From the NCBI GenBank assembly GCA_019113745.1, contig DXGV01000012.1, positions 1 to 35,577 of the forward strand: a stretch of 35,577 bases of DNA. Reading direction: 5' to 3'. Each line of letters opens with the position of its first letter. The stretch's first letter is position 1. Source of the DNA: Candidatus Blautia intestinavium. GTDB lineage: Bacteria > Bacillota > Clostridia > Lachnospirales > Lachnospiraceae. The notes beneath the pieces are model-generated. The model searched no databases. It saw only the letters and a list, made by a program, of their open reading frames with translations, and was not told the DNA's origin. This document shows positions 3,712 through 27,736 of the stretch, in pieces. The translations under genes were made by a program, and so were the position numbers.

Positions 3712-3967
3712 AATGCTTTCTCCTTAAAGAAGCCAGCGCTTCCCTTGCGTCATGAAACTGTCCATCCCGTTCAAACTCGGCCTCTGCTTCTGAAATTGCG
3801 GTGTCCATCGCTGCATTTTCCACCATCGCCTCGTAGGTTTCGATACTCATCACCACCAGATCGCCATACCCGTTTTTCGTAATAAATATCGGCTCCCGGT
3901 GTGCATGACAGATGTCCGAAATCTCGTTAGTGTTGCGAAGGTCTGTAATCGGTCTGATCTGCGGCAT
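3704..3967 (-). CDS. Phd/YefM-family antitoxin
   Basis: 87 residues. The N-terminal DNA-binding dimer region typical of Phd/YefM is clear: IRPITDLRNTNEISDICH, then EPIFITKNGYGDLVVMSIET. The C-terminal AEAEFERDGQFHDAREALAS is the toxin-wrapping tail. It neutralises the toxin encoded immediately downstream and, by family precedent, represses the operon together with it. The ATG at 3965-3967 sits behind a strong AAAGGAGGTGG. The promoter directly upstream is embedded in an inverted repeat that fits an operator. Confidence 0.88.
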   Translation of the reverse strand: MPQIRPITDLRNTNEISDICHAHREPIFITKNGYGDLVVMSIETYEAMVENAAMDTAISEAEAEFERDGQFHDAREALASLRRKHFG

Positions 3968-3983
3968 ATCGCCACCTCCTTTT

Positions 3984-4018
3984 CTTTGCTCATTATTATA
4001 GCATAATTATGTGCAAAG
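3984..4018 (-). promoter_or_regulatory. Promoter/operator of the toxin-antitoxin operon
   Basis: Minus strand: extended -10 TGCTATAAT (TATAAT at 3995-4000) with only a poor -35. The -10 is centred in an inverted repeat whose arms CTTTGCTCAT (3984-3993) and ATGTGCAAAG (4009-4018) match at 9 of 10 positions. This suits autorepression by the antitoxin or the complex. Operator function is inferred. Confidence 0.6.
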
Positions 4019-4088
4019 ATACAGGTGCCAGGCAAAAAGTTTACAAAGATTTTTTATTTCCCTGGCTTGTTCAATGCCGGGCGTGATT

Positions 4089-4952
4089 TCAGGCTTTTCC
4101 TACAGAACCGAAAAGCTCCATTTTTTCTTTTACAGTGGCTTTGATAGCTTCAAATCCAGGAGCCAGAAGTTTACGCGGGTCGTAACCCTTACCCTGCTGG
4201 TCCTTGCCTTCTTCGATATATTTACGTGTAGCTTCTGCGAAGGAAAGCTGGCACTCTGTATTTACGTTGATCTTGGAAACGCCCAGGCTGATAGCCTTTT
4301 TGATCATGTCGGCCGGGATTCCTGTGCCGCCGTGAAGAACAAGAGGCATGTCTCCTGTCAGCTTCTGGATAGCGTCCAGAGTCTCAAAGCTCAGTCCCTG
4401 CCAGTTTGCCGGATATTTGCCGTGGATATTGCCGATTCCTGCTGCCAGGAAGTCGATTCCCAGATCAGCTACCATCTTACATTCCTGAGGATCCGCGCAC
4501 TCGCCCATGCCGACTACGCCGTCTTCCTCGCCGCCGATAGAGCCGACTTCTGCTTCCAGGGACATTCCATGTTCCGCGCAGATCTTAACCAGTTCTTTTG
4601 TCTTTGCAACGTTCTCTTCGATTGGGTAGTGAGAACCGTCGAACATGATGGAGGTAAAGCCCGCCTCTACGCATTTCAGACATCCTTCGTAGCTGCCGTG
4701 GTCAAGATGAAGAGCAACCGGAACGGTGATATTCAGTTCTTCCATCATTCCCTTCACCATGCCTACAACTGTTTTATAGCCAGCCATATATTTTCCGGCG
4801 CCTTCGGAAACACCCAGAATTACCGGTGAATTATTTTCCTGTGCTGTCAGCAGGATCGCCTTTGTCCACTCAAGGTTGTTGATATTGAACTGTCCTACTG
4901 CATAATGGCCTGCTTTTGCTTTTTTCAGCATTTCTGAAGCGTTTACTAACAT
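4089..4952 (-). CDS. fba: Fructose-bisphosphate aldolase, class II
   Basis: 287 residues, the usual length. It cleaves fructose 1,6-bisphosphate to dihydroxyacetone phosphate and glyceraldehyde 3-phosphate in glycolysis, using zinc. Visible motifs are ALHLDHGSYEGC (catalytic Asp and zinc His), EAEVGSIGGEEDGV, GIGNIHGKYP and VLHGGTGIP (further zinc ligands), and GVSKINVNTE (phosphate-binding NxDT-like region). The ATG has TTAGGAGG upstream and the gene stands alone with its own promoter. The tagatose-bisphosphate aldolase branch is possible but less likely, as no galactitol/tagatose genes are near. Confidence 0.93.
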   Translation of the reverse strand: MLVNASEMLKKAKAGHYAVGQFNINNLEWTKAILLTAQENNSPVILGVSEGAGKYMAGYKTVVGMVKGMMEELNITVPVALHLDHGSYEGCLKCVEAGFTSIMFDGSHYPIEENVAKTKELVKICAEHGMSLEAEVGSIGGEEDGVVGMGECADPQECKMVADLGIDFLAAGIGNIHGKYPANWQGLSFETLDAIQKLTGDMPLVLHGGTGIPADMIKKAISLGVSKINVNTECQLSFAEATRKYIEEGKDQQGKGYDPRKLLAPGFEAIKATVKEKMELFGSVGKA

Positions 4953-5011
4953 AATAAATTCCTCCTAACCTTTCTTTAGACACAGTTTTCACCATGCCCC
5001 AATATATTTCT

Positions 5012-5040
5012 AGTTTAACAGATGAAATCTGATTCGTCTA
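5012..5040 (-). promoter_or_regulatory. Promoter of fba
   Basis: Minus strand: -35 TAGACG (5035-5040), a 17-nt spacer and -10 TAAACT (5012-5017) with an upstream TG (TGTTAAACT). It lies about 60 nt before the fba ATG and 25 nt after the stop of the preceding operon. Confidence 0.6.
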
Positions 5041-5064
5041 CTGTTTTTGTGAAAATCTGCCAAC

Positions 5065-5847
5065 TCACGATCCGGTGCTTCTGTGGTAATCTCTTGTAAA
5101 ATTTTCCAGCATGGAGTCAATATTCCGGTTATGGATATGGGCTTTCGGTTTGTTCGCAAAATACGAAAGCTCCTTTTTGATATCCTTAAGGATCTCCTGA
5201 TCAGCTCCCATCTTTGCCGCCTCATTTTCGTATTCGTCAGGCGTCCGGATGCTGTGAAAGGCAAGAAGATAGCATTTCAAAGCCGGACGGCTGTGATTTT
5301 CCTCATAAGCCATGCGGAAGCACTCCAGGGCTTTTTCCATCTGAAACAGATAACTGTACGCGCAGCCCAGATTGTGGCAGACGCTTTCTCTAAAGCCCTC
5401 TCTTTCTTTATCCAGGTTTTTCTGTTCCAGAAGCTTCTGGTATACACGGATCGCATGAACGTACATCCCGTTTTCTACCAGTGTATCGCCCTTCTGTTTT
5501 TCCCTCACCGCCGGCGTTTCCCCGTCAAGCTTCTGTATTTTACTATTCAGCGCTTTCAGTTCTTCATAAGTAAGATAATTGATCTCCTTAAAAACAGGAT
5601 AGAGAAAATCCTCCGCACTGACAAATTTTCCGATTTTAGCCCGAAGCTTGGCCGCCAGCTTTGGAAGCTGAAGCTCCTCCTGGATCCAGGTACACAGGCC
5701 CTCGTTCATAATTGTCTGATCCACCAGATAAAGATTATGGTATAAATAATAGCAGAGTTCTTCCAGAGAATAGATATTGGTGCTGATATTTTCAATAAAA
5801 TACGGAATCTCCGCCTTCCTGGTCTGGCATAAAATATAGCCGCTCAT
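5065..5847 (-). CDS. TPR-like helical repeat protein, third gene of the Hsp70-like operon
   Basis: 260 residues, no signal peptide and no membrane segment, so predicted cytosolic. The N-terminal half (residues 1-115) is helical without a family I can name. Residues about 120-215 contain TPR-like helix pairs: QKGDTLVENGMYVHAIRVYQ, VCHNLGCAYSYLFQMEKALE and CFRMAYEENHSRPALKCYLL. TPR domains bind partner proteins, including Hsp70 tails, so a co-chaperone or adaptor role for the Hsp70-like protein encoded 14 nt upstream is an inference from context. The ATG has AGGAGGGG upstream. It ends the operon. Confidence 0.75.
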   Translation of the reverse strand: MSGYILCQTRKAEIPYFIENISTNIYSLEELCYYLYHNLYLVDQTIMNEGLCTWIQEELQLPKLAAKLRAKIGKFVSAEDFLYPVFKEINYLTYEELKALNSKIQKLDGETPAVREKQKGDTLVENGMYVHAIRVYQKLLEQKNLDKEREGFRESVCHNLGCAYSYLFQMEKALECFRMAYEENHSRPALKCYLLAFHSIRTPDEYENEAAKMGADQEILKDIKKELSYFANKPKAHIHNRNIDSMLENFTRDYHRSTGS

Positions 5848-5861
5848 TTATATCCCCTCCT

Positions 5862-7109
5862 TTACCACCGGGCCGTTTCTCTCCATACTTTTCCGCTTGC
5901 AGGGAACATTTCTCCAAAGCCTAGATCCTTCACTGTGATCTGACATTCCGTCCGGGAAATATACTGAAGCTCCAGAGAAAGCCTTGTGGTCTTATTGGGG
6001 CGCTTCGGAAGACCGGGCAGCTCCATGGCAACCCGTTTTTTCTCCGTATCCCCCATCTTGCTTACAATGAAAACAAGTTCTTCCACGTTGTCAAGGATCA
6101 GCTCACAGGACGCCTTGCAGTCGTACCAGTTGCTTCCCGCCTCGATCAGAGGATGATATGTTGGAGCACCCATAACCCGCATATCCATGCCTACGTCCGT
6201 CAGCACCAGAGAACGGCTCAGATAGTGATAGCCTTTCAGATTCCGGTTGATCAGACGTTCAGCCCCGGCGGCACAGGCGCCGCTGGCGAAAAGATTACTT
6301 CCGAAAAATACTTTCCGCTTCTGGTAGCAGAGCAGTTTTACAGATTTTACCGCCCATTCCTGATCAAATCCCTCTCCGTTCATCTGAATACTGGAATAAA
6401 GGTCCGTGCCGAGGGTTTCTTTTATGAATTTGAAGAAATCCTCGTCCCGCTCCTCCGGGACTTCTCTCAGGTCCGTCTCCTTCGGATCTTCCAGCCGGAC
6501 AAGGACCGGCTTAGTTCCTGAATTCATTACCATTTTGCGGAAAGTCACATGGTTTCCGTCGAAACTGTACCATCCGACGCTTCTGTTCCATGTCTCCACT
6601 TTCTGGGTCAGCACATAATAATAGAAGCTTTCTTCATAGTCCAGGAAGCTGTAAACATCCTCCGGAAATCCCAGAGACTCACAGGCTTTCCGCAGGTTTT
6701 CCACCTGCACGGCGTCCAGAGTTTCCATTGCAATGATCAGCGATTTTGTATTGTGGACCACATCCATGATCCCAAGGAATTTCAGCATTCCCCGGAAAAA
6801 ATGCGCCAGAATTTCCCATGGCATAAGGGTATCTCCGGCAATCTGCACCGGTTCCCTGCTGGCCGCGGTTTTATAGAGATCGTCCAGAAGAAAACCGTCT
6901 TTTTCCCTGGCGAAATACTCCGCCTCCAGGCCGATGCTGTAAGCGTCCTGATCCGCCCGTCTGCAAAGGCAGGTAGGCGTTTCATAGAGGCTGCTTCCCA
7001 CCTTCACAGGGACTGAGCGCGGTTCCTCCGCTTTACGGTCGTAATAGCAGATCTGTGAATATTTTTTTCCGAAATCGATCCCGATGATCAAATCCCTTGT
7101 CTCATTCAT
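5862..7109 (-). CDS. Degenerate Hsp70/actin-fold ATPase-like protein (DUF5716-type)
   Basis: 415 residues. The Hsp70/actin ATPase landmarks can be traced but are altered. The phosphate-1 loop at residues 9-18 is IGIDFGKKYS (Dna[11 protein letters not shown]). A connect-1-like helix SFLDYEESFYYYVL spans 154-167. Phosphate-2 is reduced to YSFDGNHVTF at 181-190 (Dna[11 protein letters not shown]). An adenosine-like GSNLFASGACAAGAER lies at 270-285. Residues 355-400 echo the DnaK substrate domain: MELPGLPKR for LDGIPPARR and ITVKDLGFG for VSAKDLGTG. It starts in an ATGA overlap with the 1179-aa gene. I recall the Pfam label DUF5716 for such proteins, without a known function. ATP hydrolysis is doubtful. 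Confidence 0.75.
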   Translation of the reverse strand: MNETRDLIIGIDFGKKYSQICYYDRKAEEPRSVPVKVGSSLYETPTCLCRRADQDAYSIGLEAEYFAREKDGFLLDDLYKTAASREPVQIAGDTLMPWEILAHFFRGMLKFLGIMDVVHNTKSLIIAMETLDAVQVENLRKACESLGFPEDVYSFLDYEESFYYYVLTQKVETWNRSVGWYSFDGNHVTFRKMVMNSGTKPVLVRLEDPKETDLREVPEERDEDFFKFIKETLGTDLYSSIQMNGEGFDQEWAVKSVKLLCYQKRKVFFGSNLFASGACAAGAERLINRNLKGYHYLSRSLVLTDVGMDMRVMGAPTYHPLIEAGSNWYDCKASCELILDNVEELVFIVSKMGDTEKKRVAMELPGLPKRPNKTTRLSLELQYISRTECQITVKDLGFGEMFPASGKVWRETARW

Positions 7110-10100
7110 TTCTCATGTTCCTTTTCTATGATAAACATTTCCTTCACATACTGTTCCTGGCGGAGATAGTTCTTCAGCCCTTCCGTCACCTCCTGTCTCT
7201 TGTCAAGCCTTCTGGCGGACAAAAGCCGGTTCAGGAGCTGGTATTTACTTCCCGGAGTTCCTTCCACTTTCTTCATGGTGATCACACGTTCCGCCGTTTT
7301 TCTGGAATCGCCGCGGAAGTCGATCTGGAAATAGTAGTGAAGGGATTCCCCGTAAAACAGGGTAAATGTCTTTGTAAAGATCCCCTGATAAACTTCTTTG
7401 ACAGGAGTACTTTTGTACTCCCTTTCTTTTCCAAGTCCGGTATCCAGCGCATAAAACAGAGTTACCCTTGCCTCCGGATTGGCGTGACATTCTACAAAGG
7501 TTTTATCATCAAGCTGATAGGGACTTAAAAGCTCCGGGGAAATTCTTCTGAAGAATCCGAATACCATATTATCTTTTGCGCATTCTTCCAGAAGCATTCG
7601 TTCCATTTCTGTATATTTTTCATTTTTTTCTTTAGACAGTTCTTTCAGAAGAGCCAGTCTGCACACCCTGTTTACCGGCCAGCTATGCTCCAGGGCGTAT
7701 TCCAGCCGCTCCCGGATAAAGGGCGTCATTGTATATTCTTTTACAAATATTCCATAAGCCACCTGGGTGAGATAGGCTCCTATGATCCTCTCCTTGCCGG
7801 ACTGGTTCACATAGGATTCCAGAACCGTCTCCCCCTCTTTGCGGAAGTCGGAAGTAAACATCAGAAGACTTAAGATCCTCTCCTCCAGATCGTAGGTATC
7901 CATCTCAAAGCCCTTCGCGCTTTTCCAGATGGCGATCAGTTCGTCCAGAGGGCCAAAACGGTACTGCATCAGATAGTGGAGGATCACTTCGTCGTATTTT
8001 CCGCTTCTGTATACCTCGGAAGCAAGGGCCAGAAGCTCGTCGTCCTCCGCCATATCGGATTTCAGGATCATCCGGCTTGTAAGCTTGAGCAGGCTGCTGA
8101 GAGACAATCCCTCGTAACCGAACTCTTCCACGATCCCCATTGCCTGGCGGAACATTCTCCTGGAGATCAGCACCTCCAGAAGAACCGGGCGGTCCACAAA
8201 GGCATATTCCCGGTAATTCATTTTTTTCAGATAATGGTCCAGATCCTCTCCCTGTACATGGGCCGCATAATAATCCAGGATCTCCTTTCGGATCTCTCCG
8301 CGGAACTCCTCTGTGAAAGCCTCGGATTCCGCCATCCTCTGGTAATACTCCAGACTGACGGAATCAAGGGGATTTTCACTGCAGTAGTGGAGAAGGACTC
8401 CCGGCTCCGTCACTCCCATTTTTATAAAAGCAGGCACTGCCTGACGTTCGTCTGTCAGCTTTTTCAGGTTATAGTGGATCGTGGATACATATCTTCTCTG
8501 TTTGTCGTCCTGAAACAGGATTACTGCGTCCTCGGTGTAGATCCTCGGATACGCCACTCCCTGCACGCAGGGATAAACCTCTTCTTCCTTCATCTGGCTG
8601 TGGCAGACGATCACCTGCCGGACCTTTGGATCGTCACAGTACAGGCGGTGGGTAAACAACACTCCCGCCGTCTGTTCCGCCTCCTCAGGCGTCTCCGGGT
8701 CGAAAAGAAATTCCTGATAAACAGACGCATAATTTTCATCTATTTTTCCCTCAGCGATCTTACGGCGGGCAAACCGCTTCATACTGTCACGATAACTCTC
8801 ATAGATCAGAGGCTCTTTTTCTTTATGGGCGATCACACTTGCGTAAAGAAAAGCTTTTCTTGTGTCTCCCAGGGTATTGTCATTATAGTTGAAATACATC
8901 AGAAGCGGCTTCGGAAGCTCCCTCTGGTATGAAATATCCATTGTCTCCACATAATATTCAAAGAGTCTGGTAAGTCTGAGTCCGCGGCCTACCGCCAGGG
9001 AAAACCACCGGAAATACTGAGGTTTTCTCGGATTTCCCTTCATAATATATTTGCAGACCGCCTCCAGGACGTCGTCGGAAGGGAATTTCTCATAACCGGC
9101 GGCCAGAGCCTGATACAGCACATTACTGAAGGTCTTTTCATAACCGGAAAGATAGGCAAGGCGCATGACAAGCTCTTCTGTAAGAAGGTCTCTTCTTCCT
9201 GCATAATGGAAAACCTGCATCCAGAAAGGACTGATCCTGTGAAACAGGGACATATCCCTGCTGACCCATTTCCAGGCCTCCATATACAGAAGCGGGTTTG
9301 TGCATCCTTTTTCAAACAGCTCTTCCATCATGAAAATTCCCATTGAGGGGCTGTTTTTATAATAGCTGTCCATCTGCAGCAGAAGCCACAGAAGCTGGAA
9401 GCTGTCCTCCTTCTGCATGTAGAAATTCTGGATTTTCCACAACGCCTGGGTTCTGTCTTTATACAGCCCGGTAAGCGTACAGAGATACAGATAGGTTCCC
9501 GCCAGCTCCAGCTCATCCCGGGTAAATTCCCGGTCCTGATACTTTTTCAGTATCGCCGCCGCTTCCGCGTCTTTTCCTTCCAGGTGATCCACGTAGGCCT
9601 CATATAACTGGTACTCAGGATATTCGCAGCCGGATTCCCGAAGCTGGTTCAGAATAAAGTGCGTGCTTCCCGCCCACGCCTTAAAGTCCAGACGGCCTTC
9701 CCGGTAATCTATGTAATCCTTTATCATGGATATTCTGGCTTTCTTTTCTTCCCCGTGAACATCCACCCGGACATTGGAGCCTTTTGACGCTGTTACATGG
9801 TAAATAAGCTCCTGGTAAGGACTTCTCACCACAATCTCTCCAAGCTGCGTTCCCTCTTTCAGTTTATCCGCCTGGATAATATAATCTATCCGGCAGGTGC
9901 TTCCTATAAAGTCGTCTTCCGTGAGCACGCGGCGTTCCGCCTCCAGAAAACCGCCTCTCGTTTCAATATCCAGCCTCAGATGTCCCCAGCCGCTTTTCTG
10001 AATATCAAAAGATTCCTGTACCGGTTCGCTGATGCCGTAAAACTCCGCTTCTGTTGTTTTCAGAACAAGAGACACCGGTTCCTTTTCTTTCAGTCCTATG

Positions 10101-10645
10101 AAAAACTCTTCCAGATGCTGATACGTAACAGGCTGTCTGGACATTCCCGCGTACAGAGCCTTCTCCCGGTTCCCGGCCTCCGCCATAACTATCGGGAAAT
10201 ATTTATCTGTAAAAAGGCGATATGCCTCCCGGAAATCCCTTCGGGCGATTTCCCGGAAAGCTTCCATATCTTTAATTTCTCCTTCGGAGCTTAAGATCTG
10301 TTCTTTTTTTGCTTCAATAAGAAAAGGGATCTTATATTCTCCTATATTGGAAGTCACGCACAGCCATCCTGTACACTGATCCCCGGGATTCATCCCCGTC
10401 CCGTCCGCCCCATAGGGCAGGCAGATCGTCGTCCCGGAAAATTTTCCGTTGCCCGGAACCAGTCTCCTGCTGGAGGACGTGATATATCCCTGAATTTTCT
10501 CATTATCTTCTGTGCCAAGATACAACTCGCCGCGCACCGTCTCTCCGGCCTCCAGAGTAATAGAAAGCTTTTCCTTTGAAAACAGAAGGCGAGGCTGCTC
10601 GTATCTGAATTTTCCGCTTAGTAGTTGTTCGATCTTTTTCTTCAA
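7106..10645 (-). CDS. Large beta/helical-repeat protein of unknown function (DUF5717-type)
   Basis: 1179 residues starting at TTG 10643-10645; the start is supported by GGTGA 6 nt upstream and an in-frame stop just before it. No signal peptide or membrane segment, so cytosolic. Residues about 15-115 and 195-300 are beta-rich with Ig-like spacing (SITLEAGETVRGELYLGT; SGWGHLRLDIE). About 310-1010 is a long helical solenoid with TPR-like units (ELELAGTYLYLCTLTGLYKD; MRLAYLSGYEKTFSNVLYQA). The C-terminal 150 residues are again beta-rich. I recall the family as DUF5717 of Lachnospiraceae, uncharacterised. It heads an operon and overlaps the Hsp70-like gene by 4 nt, so the products are probably made in step. 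Confidence 0.78.
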   Translation of the reverse strand: MKKKIEQLLSGKFRYEQPRLLFSKEKLSITLEAGETVRGELYLGTEDNEKIQGYITSSSRRLVPGNGKFSGTTICLPYGADGTGMNPGDQCTGWLCVTSNIGEYKIPFLIEAKKEQILSSEGEIKDMEAFREIARRDFREAYRLFTDKYFPIVMAEAGNREKALYAGMSRQPVTYQHLEEFFIGLKEKEPVSLVLKTTEAEFYGISEPVQESFDIQKSGWGHLRLDIETRGGFLEAERRVLTEDDFIGSTCRIDYIIQADKLKEGTQLGEIVVRSPYQELIYHVTASKGSNVRVDVHGEEKKARISMIKDYIDYREGRLDFKAWAGSTHFILNQLRESGCEYPEYQLYEAYVDHLEGKDAEAAAILKKYQDREFTRDELELAGTYLYLCTLTGLYKDRTQALWKIQNFYMQKEDSFQLLWLLLQMDSYYKNSPSMGIFMMEELFEKGCTNPLLYMEAWKWVSRDMSLFHRISPFWMQVFHYAGRRDLLTEELVMRLAYLSGYEKTFSNVLYQALAAGYEKFPSDDVLEAVCKYIMKGNPRKPQYFRWFSLAVGRGLRLTRLFEYYVETMDISYQRELPKPLLMYFNYNDNTLGDTRKAFLYASVIAHKEKEPLIYESYRDSMKRFARRKIAEGKIDENYASVYQEFLFDPETPEEAEQTAGVLFTHRLYCDDPKVRQVIVCHSQMKEEEVYPCVQGVAYPRIYTEDAVILFQDDKQRRYVSTIHYNLKKLTDERQAVPAFIKMGVTEPGVLLHYCSENPLDSVSLEYYQRMAESEAFTEEFRGEIRKEILDYYAAHVQGEDLDHYLKKMNYREYAFVDRPVLLEVLISRRMFRQAMGIVEEFGYEGLSLSSLLKLTSRMILKSDMAEDDELLALASEVYRSGKYDEVILHYLMQYRFGPLDELIAIWKSAKGFEMDTYDLEERILSLLMFTSDFRKEGETVLESYVNQSGKERIIGAYLTQVAYGIFVKEYTMTPFIRERLEYALEHSWPVNRVCRLALLKELSKEKNEKYTEMERMLLEECAKDNMVFGFFRRISPELLSPYQLDDKTFVECHANPEARVTLFYALDTGLGKEREYKSTPVKEVYQGIFTKTFTLFYGESLHYYFQIDFRGDSRKTAERVITMKKVEGTPGSKYQLLNRLLSARRLDKRQEVTEGLKNYLRQEQYVKEMFIIEKEHEK

Positions 10646-10701
10646 TATGGTTCACCATGCTATCCTTTAAGTTACATTCTCTTACATTTTACGACAAGCC
10701 T

Positions 10702-10730
10702 ATTATACACTACAAAATCAACGGGCGCAA
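10702..10730 (-). promoter_or_regulatory. Promoter of the Hsp70-like/TPR operon
   Basis: Minus strand: -35 TTGCGC (10725-10730), 17-nt spacer and consensus -10 TATAAT (10702-10707), about 57 nt upstream of the TTG start at 10645. It follows the sugar-kinase terminator, making the three genes an independent transcription unit. No CIRCE element is present here. Confidence 0.7.
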
Positions 10731-10777
10731 GAAAGTATGGTTCTCTCCTGCGCCCATCTGCAACCTGGTCTGCGGCG

Positions 10778-10802: not shown

Positions 10803-11690
10803 TCACAGATCGCTGTTCAGTACTTCCTCTCTCAGAGGGATCGAAGCCGTGGCGCCCGCTCTGGAAACCGCAATGGCCGACGCTTTGGCCGCCAGCTTCA
10901 GACCTTCCTGCACTGGCAGCCCGTCTATCAGGGATGAAATGAAATATCCCGTGAACGTATCGCCCGCCGCGGTAGTATCCACTGCTTTTACCTTATAAAT
11001 ACCCTGGCGGTGAACAGCGCCCGTCTCGTCCTGGTACACCGAACCGTTGCCGCCCAGAGTAAGAACCACTTTCGCCTTCGGATAGATTTCTCTGATCTTC
11101 TCAAGAATCCTGTCCGGCTCCTTTTCTCCTGTGATCTGGTATCCTTCGATCTCATTCACAAGAAACAGGCTGACTTTGCCAAGATCACACTTTTTCAGCC
11201 CGTCGTCGTATGGAGACGGATTCAGGATGATCATCATTCCTTTTTCATACGCCCTGTCAATGATATAATCCAGCTCGTTGATCTCGTTCTGCAGAAGGAT
11301 CATATCTCCGCTGTCAAAAGCGTCCAGGACTTCGTCTGCAAATTCTTTCGTGATGCTGCGGTTGGAGCCTCCAAAGAGCAGGATACAGTTCTGTCCGTCT
11401 TTGTCTACCTGAATGATCGTATGCCCGCTTGGTCCGTCGATCTTCCTGATAAACTCTGTATTTACTCCGTTTTCCCTGCAGGTTTCCAGAAGGACGTCTC
11501 CTTCTTCCCCGATCATCCCTGCATGGTATACCGGGATTCCCGCCTTTGCCAGCGCAATGGACTGGTTCAGTCCTTTTCCTCCGCAAAAAATCTGCCTGCC
11601 CTTTGACGCCTGTGTTTCTCCCGGAACAAGTATGGTTTCTACCTGATAGGTATAGTCCAGATTAAGAGAACCAAAATTTAATACCTTCAT
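10803..11690 (-). CDS. PfkB-family carbohydrate kinase, ribokinase-like
   Basis: 295 residues from ATG 11688-11690 with AAAGGAGG upstream; the longer open frame to 11753 runs through the promoter. The PfkB signatures are present: FCGGKGLNQSIALAKAG (sugar-binding region, ribokinase GGKGANQA type) and VDTTAAGDTFTGYF (catalytic Asp and anion hole; the usual AAGA is AAGD). The N-terminal FGSLNLDY and PGETQASKG also match ribokinase. It would phosphorylate ribose or a related sugar with ATP. No transporter or regulator is adjacent, so the exact sugar is open. Divergent from sigK. Confidence 0.85.
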   Translation of the reverse strand: MKVLNFGSLNLDYTYQVETILVPGETQASKGRQIFCGGKGLNQSIALAKAGIPVYHAGMIGEEGDVLLETCRENGVNTEFIRKIDGPSGHTIIQVDKDGQNCILLFGGSNRSITKEFADEVLDAFDSGDMILLQNEINELDYIIDRAYEKGMMIILNPSPYDDGLKKCDLGKVSLFLVNEIEGYQITGEKEPDRILEKIREIYPKAKVVLTLGGNGSVYQDETGAVHRQGIYKVKAVDTTAAGDTFTGYFISSLIDGLPVQEGLKLAAKASAIAVSRAGATASIPLREEVLNSDL

Positions 11691-11724
11691 GCTGCCGCCT
11701 CCTTTTTCAGAAACATTTGTTTTC

Positions 11725-11753
11725 AGTATACTGCCAGCCTCTTTTACCGTCAA
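11725..11753 (-). promoter_or_regulatory. Promoter of the PfkB kinase gene
   Basis: Minus strand: -35 TTGACG (11748-11753), 17-nt spacer and -10 TATACT (11725-11730), about 35 nt before the kinase ATG. A housekeeping sigma-A promoter, back to back with the sporulation-type promoter of sigK. Confidence 0.7.
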
Positions 11754-24491: not shown

Positions 24492-25676
24492 TTACTCTTC
24501 AAAAGCTTCTTTCACTTTATCCATAAAGCTCTTTTTCTTCTTTCCGGTTTTCTCCGGTCCGTTTCCTTTTTCCCCGCCGGACGGCCTGTTTCCGCAGGCT
24601 GCGTCAAAGCGGCGGAGCGCTTCCTTTGCCTCTTCGCTGAGTTTCGTAGGAACCTGAACGACCAACGTCACATAATGGTCTCCACGGATGTTCCTGTTTC
24701 TCAAAGAAGGAACGCCTTTTCCTTTCAGCCGGATGCGGGTATCTGTCTGGGTACCAGGCTTCACTTCGTAAGCCACTTCACCGTCCACCGTATTGATACG
24801 CACTTCGCCGCCGAGAGCAGCCTGGGCATAAGTGATGGGCGCTGTGGAAAAAATGTTCATATCCTGTCTCTGGAAGATCGGATGGCGGGCGATATTTACC
24901 TCTACCAGCAGATCGCCTCTCGGACCGCCGTTCGTTCCCGGTTCGCCTTTTTCACGGATACGGATACTCTGACCGTTATCAATACCTGCCGGAATGGAAA
25001 CCTGGATCTTCTTTCTGGAAGAAGTATAGCCGGTGCCGCGGCAGGAACTGCATTTCTCTTTGATCACTTTTCCTGTTCCGCCGCATTCCGGACAGGTCTG
25101 TACGTTCCGGACCATGCCGAACATAGACTGCTGGGTATATACGATCTGACCTTCGCCATGACATTTCGGACAGGTTACCGGCTCTGTGCCCGGCTTTGCC
25201 CCTGTTCCGTGACAGGCGGTACACTCATCCTTCAGGACAATATCCAGCTCCTTCTCGCAGCCAAATACAGCCTCCTCAAAGGTAATGTTTACCCTTGCCC
25301 GGAGATTTGCTCCCCTCATTGGGCCGTTATTGGCGCGTCTCCTGCTTCCGCCGCCAAACAGATCACCGAAAATATCGCCGAAGATATCGCTCATATCCGC
25401 GCTGTTGAAGTCGAAACCGCCGAAGCCGCCGGCTCCGCCTCCTCCGTTTTCAAATGCAGCATGGCCGAACTGGTCGTACTGCTTTCTCTTTTCTGGATCG
25501 CTGAGGACAGTATACGCTTCCGTAGCCTCTTTAAATTTTGCCTCTGCATTTTTATCACCCGGATTTACATCCGGGTGATATTTCTTGGCCAATTTCCGAT
25601 ATGCTTTTTTCAGTTCTGCGTCGCTGGCGTTTTTTGCAACTCCCAGGACTTCATAGTAATCTCTTTTATCAGCCAT
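24492..25676 (-). CDS. dnaJ: Chaperone protein DnaJ
   Basis: 394 residues. Hsp40 co-chaperone that stimulates the DnaK ATPase and delivers substrates. J-domain at residues 1-70 with the HPD motif ([10 protein letters not shown]), Gly/Phe-rich linker with a duplicated [13 protein letters not shown], four zinc-finger repeats ([39 protein letters not shown]), then the two beta substrate domains. Type I DnaJ, full length, with a charged lysine-rich tail ([16 protein letters not shown]). It lies 25 nt downstream of dnaK. Confidence 0.97.
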
Positions 25677-25701
25677 GTTATCTCTTTCCTATGCTTTCTT
25701 C

Positions 25702-27736
<2,035 letters not shown>

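Follow-up and report, generated by a model that had tools for sequence, protein, structure and literature searches.

Ssz1 of the yeast ribosome-associated complex is a truncated Hsp70 that lacks the alpha part of the substrate-binding domain (SBD-alpha), hydrolyzes little or no ATP and forms an unusually stable complex with its partner Zuo1 (PMC8476630, accessible part). Among bacteria, duplicated and specialized Hsp70s have been treated as DnaK paralogues (PMC11019930), but that work is concerned with DnaK homologues, and no words beginning with Clostridi- or Lachnospir- occur in its main text. A third related theme are the neighborhoods of GAP1-N2 GTPases, which combine Hsp70, GrpE, a second, shortened Hsp70 and FNIII/TPR repeat proteins, with VWA domains in related themes (PMC7159879, accessible part). 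Here, we analyze a three-gene operon on a stretch of 35,577 nucleotides from Candidatus Blautia intestinavium (Lachnospiraceae; contig DXGV01000012.1), which we call the window. Its genes lie on the minus strand and encode a DUF5717 protein of 1179 aa (protein 1; gene 1, 7106..10645, TTG start), a DUF5716 pseudo-Hsp70 of 415 aa (protein 2; gene 2, 5862..7109, ATG start) and a TPR protein of 260 aa (protein 3; gene 3, 5065..5847, ATG start). All three were assigned from the list of open reading frames (ORFs) and Pfam, with profiles, AlphaFold2 (AF2) models and Foldseek in addition for protein 2 and alignment A3 for protein 3. We show that protein 2 is a genuine Hsp70 homologue without a lid, related over the nucleotide-binding domain (NBD) and the beta part of the substrate-binding domain (SBD-beta), and the three-gene unit of the Lachnospiraceae seems to be a core left over from an eight-gene chaperone operon. 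That operon, found in sister families, runs in the order DUF5717_N, DUF5717, Hsp70 (H1), GrpE-tailed protein, DUF5716, Hsp70 (H2), Hsp70-VWA and TPR, and the window's operon corresponds to its positions 1 and 2, here fused, together with 5 and 8, without any change of order.

Proteins 1 and 2 are direct members, far above the curated cut-offs, of the Pfam entries DUF5717_N (PF18984), DUF5717 (PF18983) and DUF5716_C (PF18980), but the lines returned for these entries name no function, Hsp70 kinship, operon or eight-gene parent, and NCBIfam has no model for either protein. Our literature searches, with most subscription papers and preprints outside their coverage, found no description of DUF5716, DUF5717 or the two operons (for the two DUFs, they yielded a single irrelevant paper), and neither operon is described in the accessible parts of PMC7159879 and PMC11019930. 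As far as these searches go, the eight-gene operon is a multi-Hsp70 system new to the literature, and its parts list is defined.

Protein 2 and the Hsp70 family

The original prediction for this DNA had assigned an Hsp70/actin-like core to protein 2, and profiles, AF2 and Foldseek all find an Hsp70 fold. Protein 2 matches DUF5716_C in Pfam (E 4.7e-99), and its single sequence yields neither an HSP70 match there nor any match in a search of the PDB. A profile of 61 relatives matches 136 distinct PDB sequences at E 0.01 with DnaK at the top (E 1.7e-21), though this profile held four partner Hsp70s, which eased its match to DnaK. The best 60 of these 136 sequences comprise 59 of Hsp70 type and a single TPR protein, which is explained by the TPR fusions in the profile. 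A profile built from 26 Lachnospiraceae DUF5716 sequences only is the cleaner test and matches the window's DnaK at E 2.8e-9; run against 3327 ORFs (the window and all fetched loci), it gives 213 matches up to E 10, all of which fit best to the DUF5716, H1, H2, Hsp70-VWA or DnaK profiles. The AF2 model of protein 2 (mean pLDDT, the per-residue confidence score, 92.8; pTM, the predicted TM-score, 0.84) folds as an Hsp70 NBD (around aa 1-296) followed by SBD-beta (around aa 304-413), and Foldseek matches it best to DnaK 7kru (E 8.2e-19, TM 0.61 by query length). The DUF5716 protein of one outgroup locus, L034, even matches Pfam HSP70 directly at 1.8e-14.

Protein 2 had also been called degenerate, rightly so, and this can now be made precise. 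We counted seven catalytic positions (DnaK T11, T12, N13, K70, E171, T199 and D201) in an alignment with the window's DnaK, and all 90 DUF5716 sequences retain only zero to two of them. In the Lachnospiraceae (n=58), 45 sequences keep none of the seven, 12 keep one and a single one keeps two, and the outgroup DUF5716 (n=32) look much the same, with none in 22 and one in 10. By contrast, the H1, H2 and Hsp70-VWA partners of the outgroup operon carry six or seven of the seven residues in 90 of 91 cases, and the exception is one Hsp70-VWA row with gaps at catalytic positions. This count took ORFs of at least 300 aa and then excluded those below 340 aa, those whose last 150 residues exactly repeated another ORF, those whose best match was below 100 bits and to a non-DUF5716 profile, and the other Hsp70s of locus L049; loci L016, L094, L095 and L139 are absent from it. 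A smaller, hand-chosen alignment (26 Lachnospiraceae and 10 outgroup DUF5716; 9, 7 and 8 partners) gives the same picture. T199 is important for hydrolysis, and E171 and K70 are pocket residues (PMC13012618, accessible part). K70, E171, T199 and D201 are gone together with the phosphate-2 glycine loop, and no single substitute has taken the place of T199 or D201 in the Lachnospiraceae. From this residue loss, protein 2 is predicted to hydrolyze little or no ATP.

Two further parts of the canonical architecture are reduced or missing. The phosphate-2 and adenosine motifs are separated by 49 aa in protein 2 vs 129 in the window's DnaK, and the spacing is 46-64 aa in the 26 Lachnospiraceae DUF5716 vs 125-138 aa in 10 outgroup DUF5716. 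This segment, which we take to hold NBD lobe IIB, is thus cut by half or more in the aligned Lachnospiraceae sequences and lies at 6399..6521 (minus strand) in gene 2. Lobe IIB is a part of Hsp70 that GrpE contacts. The SBD-alpha lid is absent, since only 119 aa follow the linker compared to 264 in the window's DnaK, and the model ends in beta strands. Protein 2 therefore aligns with DnaK over NBD and SBD-beta, but a plain DnaK-like, canonical Hsp70 chaperone is ruled out by the loss of the catalytic residues, in addition to the missing lid and the incomplete lobe IIB.

Some of the nucleotide-binding site nevertheless survives. DnaK D8 is kept in 55 of 58 Lachnospiraceae DUF5716, two adenosine-side glycines (the G341-equivalent and the GA glycine) are kept in 26/26 each, and a well-kept GxGFxxxWA stands in place of the adenosine motif in most rows. 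Judged from these retained residues, protein 2 may still bind nucleotide. One could go further and propose a remodeled pocket in which nucleotide is still bound and slowly turned over, so that the complex would be an ATP-switched machine with changed chemistry. Given that K70, E171, T199, D201 and the glycine loop have all disappeared and that the kept adenosine-side glycines may simply serve the fold, we consider such a machine quite improbable.

Conservation of the unit and its eight-gene counterpart

The original prediction treated the three genes as one unit, and neither of the two findings that it named as speaking against it, a lack of co-conservation and a protein 2 without an Hsp70/actin fold, has come about, which leaves its interpretation supported. 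In 150 Lachnospiraceae genomes, each of a different genus and 125 of them of good quality, DUF5717_N is found in 147 (123 of the good-quality ones), DUF5716 in 145 (122) and the TPR gene, sought with the purpose-built profile A3, in 144 (122). The DUF5717 and DUF5716 genes are mostly single-copy within the family. They are adjacent on one strand in 138/142 genomes and lie on different contigs in the other four, a count that used listed places for 144 of the 147 DUF5717_N-positive and all 145 DUF5716-positive genomes. In all 43 Lachnospiraceae loci that we read, which were chosen for carrying DUF5716 or DUF5717 (42 distinct, as L031 and L055 have an identical DUF5717 sequence), the three genes stand in the same order on one strand. 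Five of these loci (L074-L078, picked for long frames) have genes 2 and 3 as a single ORF of 684-723 aa, and these fusions suggest a contact between proteins 2 and 3. Among good-quality genomes, none of the three genes was found in G089 and G151, and G158 has only a piece of DUF5717_N. Outside the order, the class and phylum samples hold no convincing occurrence: the former is positive in 10/243 and the latter in 4/299 genomes, all of the same family, and in the phylum sample one match from another family falls below the cut-off at 18.7 bits. The gene set is thus present in 96-98% of the sampled genera of a large family of gut bacteria.

This distribution bears on the idea that the operon is a sensor or conflict-type chaperone system, i.e., anti-phage or effector-regulating, like the HSP70/GrpE/FNIII-TPR theme of the GAP1-N2 GTPase neighborhoods. 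The parts of the eight-gene operon (Hsp70s, GrpE, VWA, TPR and Ig-like repeats) do resemble that theme (PMC7159879, accessible part). However, no GAP1-N2-type (TRAFAC) GTPase or GAP1 gene was found among 10 flanking or linked ORFs scanned or in the operons themselves, and the genes are near-universal and mostly single-copy in one family, unlike patchy defense genes. PADLOC (PADLOC-DB 2.0) returned no match for the three window proteins, though weak matches for four of five eight-gene partners scanned. We therefore reject a defense or conflict role, and sensor or conflict-type readings as a whole seem very unlikely to us. A mobile element is likewise rejected, as protein 1 has no plasmid match, which also counts against a conflict system. 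Protein 2 does match four GenBank faecal records named “Bacteriophage sp.” (MT835486.1, MT835719.1, MT835988.1 and MT837634.1), of which MT835486.1 (our locus L139) is probably bacterial DNA because it is unannotated, has a description beginning with UNVERIFIED and carries the whole three-gene operon.

In the outgroup, the row DUF5717-H1-GrpE-DUF5716-H2-Hsp70VWA-TPR stands on one strand in 22 of 46 loci read, spread over nine families. Within these 22 loci, DUF5717_N is a separate gene in 15 and part of a long ORF in two (L103 and L104), and it was not detected in the remaining five (L035, which begins inside DUF5717, L109, L110, L111 and L122). At L034:6787-8862 and L034:12127-14019, with equivalents at other loci, we noted lidless Hsp70s that carry a VWA domain where the C-terminal lid would be. 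The GrpE-tailed proteins of that operon mostly measure around 560-645 aa, and the N-terminal part has no Pfam family above cut-off in the two long ones scanned. Genome G040 has all eight genes at three places, DUF5717_N-DUF5717-H1 (L134), GrpE-DUF5716 (L042) and H2-Hsp70VWA-TPR (L045), and that the set is split yet fully kept argues for functional linkage without synteny. Near the last of these blocks, a 2466-aa ORF (L045:10778-18178) has no Pfam family above cut-off. In other loci of family f5 (L116, L117 and L118), no more than the first gene or the first two were seen, L115 stops after DUF5716, L107 stops after H2, no TPR gene was seen in L123 and L133, and no DUF5716 in L112. In L044 (family f16, genome G051; 3817-8916), only DUF5717_N, DUF5717 and DUF5716 are left, with a 238-aa ORF of no assigned family and a gene of the YitT family behind them, and this is apparently a second, separate reduction.

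A loss from eight genes to three is the simplest account for the Lachnospiraceae because of the lobe IIB segment, the conserved gene order and the tree. In a maximum-likelihood tree of 44 sequences including nine Lachnospiraceae DUF5716 rows, these rows form one group (100/97), to which the DUF5716 of L041 is sister (100/100), a locus with all eight genes albeit with frame breaks in the last two. DnaK, H1 and Hsp70-VWA group together, and H2-type Hsp70 is placed between them and DUF5716. The H1, H2 and Hsp70-VWA profiles each found nothing in 80 Lachnospiraceae genomes at E 1e-120; profiles made from the same sequences score 780-1422 bits on full-length outgroup ORFs. Near the operon, no cluster-type Hsp70 is present in the 43 loci, aside from weak matches in L049. 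This Blautia locus (L049:835-8670, genome G029) has four Hsp70-family genes of 502-527 aa, one of them weakly Hsp70, directly downstream on the same strand along with a 442-aa ORF without Pfam family, and none of these exceeds 139 bits with the cluster or DnaK profiles. We rejected a re-acquisition of the partners in the Lachnospiraceae, as these Hsp70s of L049 match the cluster's Hsp70 profiles at only 44-124 bits and seem unrelated.

Several points weigh against this account. The direction from eight to three is drawn from the IIB segment, the order of the genes and the tree, where four DUF5716 rows, among them L041, are flagged for long branches, making their placement less sure. The searches at E 1e-120 had no positive control with the same tool and would miss weaker homologues. 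The absence of a GrpE-tailed gene holds for the surroundings of the operon in the 43 loci, as no genome-wide search was made. DUF5717_N occurs in 58/116 sampled genomes of the order, and the other half is without it. Finally, the complete gene row is not seen in 24 of the 46 outgroup loci; many of these end at a contig end or at the edge of the stretch read, some are divided among several places, and some are really partial.

Proteins 1 and 3 and a putative scaffold complex

The architecture of protein 1 had been described as beta domains plus a long helical solenoid, and the AF2 model agrees (mean pLDDT 88.5, pTM 0.65). In Pfam, the protein consists of DUF5717_N (aa 1-865, E 6.7e-270) and DUF5717 (aa 868-1171, E 2.4e-96), and a scan of genome contigs found homologues with 96% identity in Candidatus Blautia intestinipullorum and 88% in Candidatus Blautia excrementipullorum. 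Two N-terminal Ig/ASH-like beta-sandwich regions with approximate boundaries and a helical insert (aa 20-112 and 192-286; 9788..10588, minus strand) precede a helical solenoid in two blocks (aa 296-660 and 736-1043; 7517..9760, minus strand), which flank a small beta insert (aa 665-729), both features being drawn from AF2 and Foldseek. A C-terminal beta domain (aa 1049-1123; 7277..7501, minus strand), assigned from AF2 secondary structure, is followed by a helical tail at the end of the model. Foldseek matches protein 1 to ciliary central-pair chains, CEP192 SPD-2 and P. gingivalis 2qsv over around 280-300 columns (E around 1e-6 to 5e-5; the output does not state the query region covered), of which the central-pair and CEP192 chains carry ASH/MSP-like domains. 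The solenoid matches Ctr9, Ski3, Naa15 and PPR10 and shows weak TPR/PPR profile matches. With TM-scores of just 0.07-0.16 by query length among the best 50 matches, these model-based hits indicate fold resemblance and are no evidence for a common function. For protein 3, the proposed TPR-like repeats are confirmed by a TPR_2 match (E 5.2e-7; repeats at roughly aa 113-190), and its N-terminal part has no family above cut-off.

We consider it somewhat probable that the operon encodes a stable cytosolic complex in which the pseudo-Hsp70 is a fixed module, protein 1 an Ig-solenoid scaffold and protein 3 a TPR adaptor. Having lost its catalytic residues, protein 2 is inferred to be unable to run an ATP-driven cycle of binding and release. 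It would work as a fixed module whose SBD-beta and NBD hold protein 1 and the TPR protein or, alternatively, a client segment. Protein 1 with its Ig-like domains and solenoid would serve as a long scaffold, and protein 3 as an adaptor that touches protein 2. In the sister families, three catalytically intact lidless Hsp70s (one with VWA instead of a lid) and the GrpE-tailed protein would cycle on this scaffold. The Lachnospiraceae would have dropped this cycling half, with the core working alone or borrowing DnaK. The original prediction had proposed that the three proteins form a complex of their own, apart from DnaK, as a chaperone, scaffold or sensor; of this, we favor the scaffold part and, in view of the residue loss, disfavor an ATP-driven chaperone. 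The conserved DUF5716 motifs give no sign of whether SBD-beta binds peptide.

In its presumed working, the closest analogue of protein 2 is Ssz1, and by this analogy the protein could be held much like the nearly ATPase-inactive Ssz1 that is locked to Zuo1. The two differ in that Ssz1 is an ATP binder whose partner is a J-protein and whose place is the ribosome, whereas the partners here are others, and Pfam finds no J-domain in the three genes or in those genes of the eight-gene operon that were scanned. We do not claim membership in the Ssz1 subfamily. DUF5716 branches next to bacterial H2-type Hsp70 in our tree, which has no Ssz1 in it, and its origin is probably separate. Similarly, likeness to the GAP1-N2 neighborhoods ends at the parts list, since the operon here has no such GTPase or GAP1 among the neighbors scanned and is near-universal in one family instead of patchy. 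A bolder, still tentative possibility is that the Lachnospiraceae possess a “frozen”, ATP-independent Hsp70 assembly from which three ATPase Hsp70s and a GrpE-type partner were stripped, i.e., a family-wide bacterial counterpart of eukaryotic pseudo-Hsp70 complexes, with the inactive Hsp70, the Ig-solenoid scaffold and the TPR adaptor kept as a core that is probably important to the cell. The unit looks like an Hsp70 machine without its engines that has retained the inactive Hsp70, and it would then be a natural experiment on what the Hsp70 fold does without an ATP cycle.

A different role for protein 2 would be that of a regulatory co-chaperone of DnaK, such as an Hsp110/Sse-like exchange factor or a tether, with the operon adapting DnaK to particular clients. 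The window's genome, 83% complete, has DnaK as its sole strong Hsp70 next to one 47-bit PF00012 match, and four Lachnospiraceae assemblies of 1-5 contigs (G095, G132, G162 and G164) have two PF00012 matches each. Foldseek matches protein 2 to structures of Hsp110 and Ssz1 as well, and atypical Hsp70s of yeast work with canonical ones (PMC8476630, accessible part). Yet Foldseek places DnaK far above Sse1, protein 2 is without the SBD-alpha that Sse uses for its contact (PMC8476630, accessible part), and its lobe IIB segment is largely gone. Moreover, with three further Hsp70s next to DUF5716 in the sister families, the partner does not have to be DnaK. Taken together, we regard a co-chaperone role as unlikely and prefer the scaffold complex.

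Gene layout and promoter

The coordinates of the three minus-strand ORFs are all borne out, including a 4-nt ATGA overlap of genes 1 and 2 (7106-7109) and a 14-nt gap between genes 2 and 3 (5848-5861) with AGGAGG inside. The proposed promoter TTGCGC-17-TATAAT fares less evenly. Its letters are present at 10730-10702, and the TATAAT (10702..10707, minus strand) is a perfect and probable -10 of the operon. The TTGCGC (10725..10730, minus strand) matches the consensus -35 at three of six bases and lies inside the stem of a terminator-like hairpin of 16 pairs (10720..10758, minus strand), leaving the -35 doubtful. A promoter scan did not list this site and found five others vs 6.6 expected in shuffles. 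The hairpin is located 3' of the pfkB-type gene upstream of the operon (10803-11753, minus strand). Further upstream, around 14 kb from the operon and on the same strand, the window contains dnaJ and dnaK at 24492-27582.

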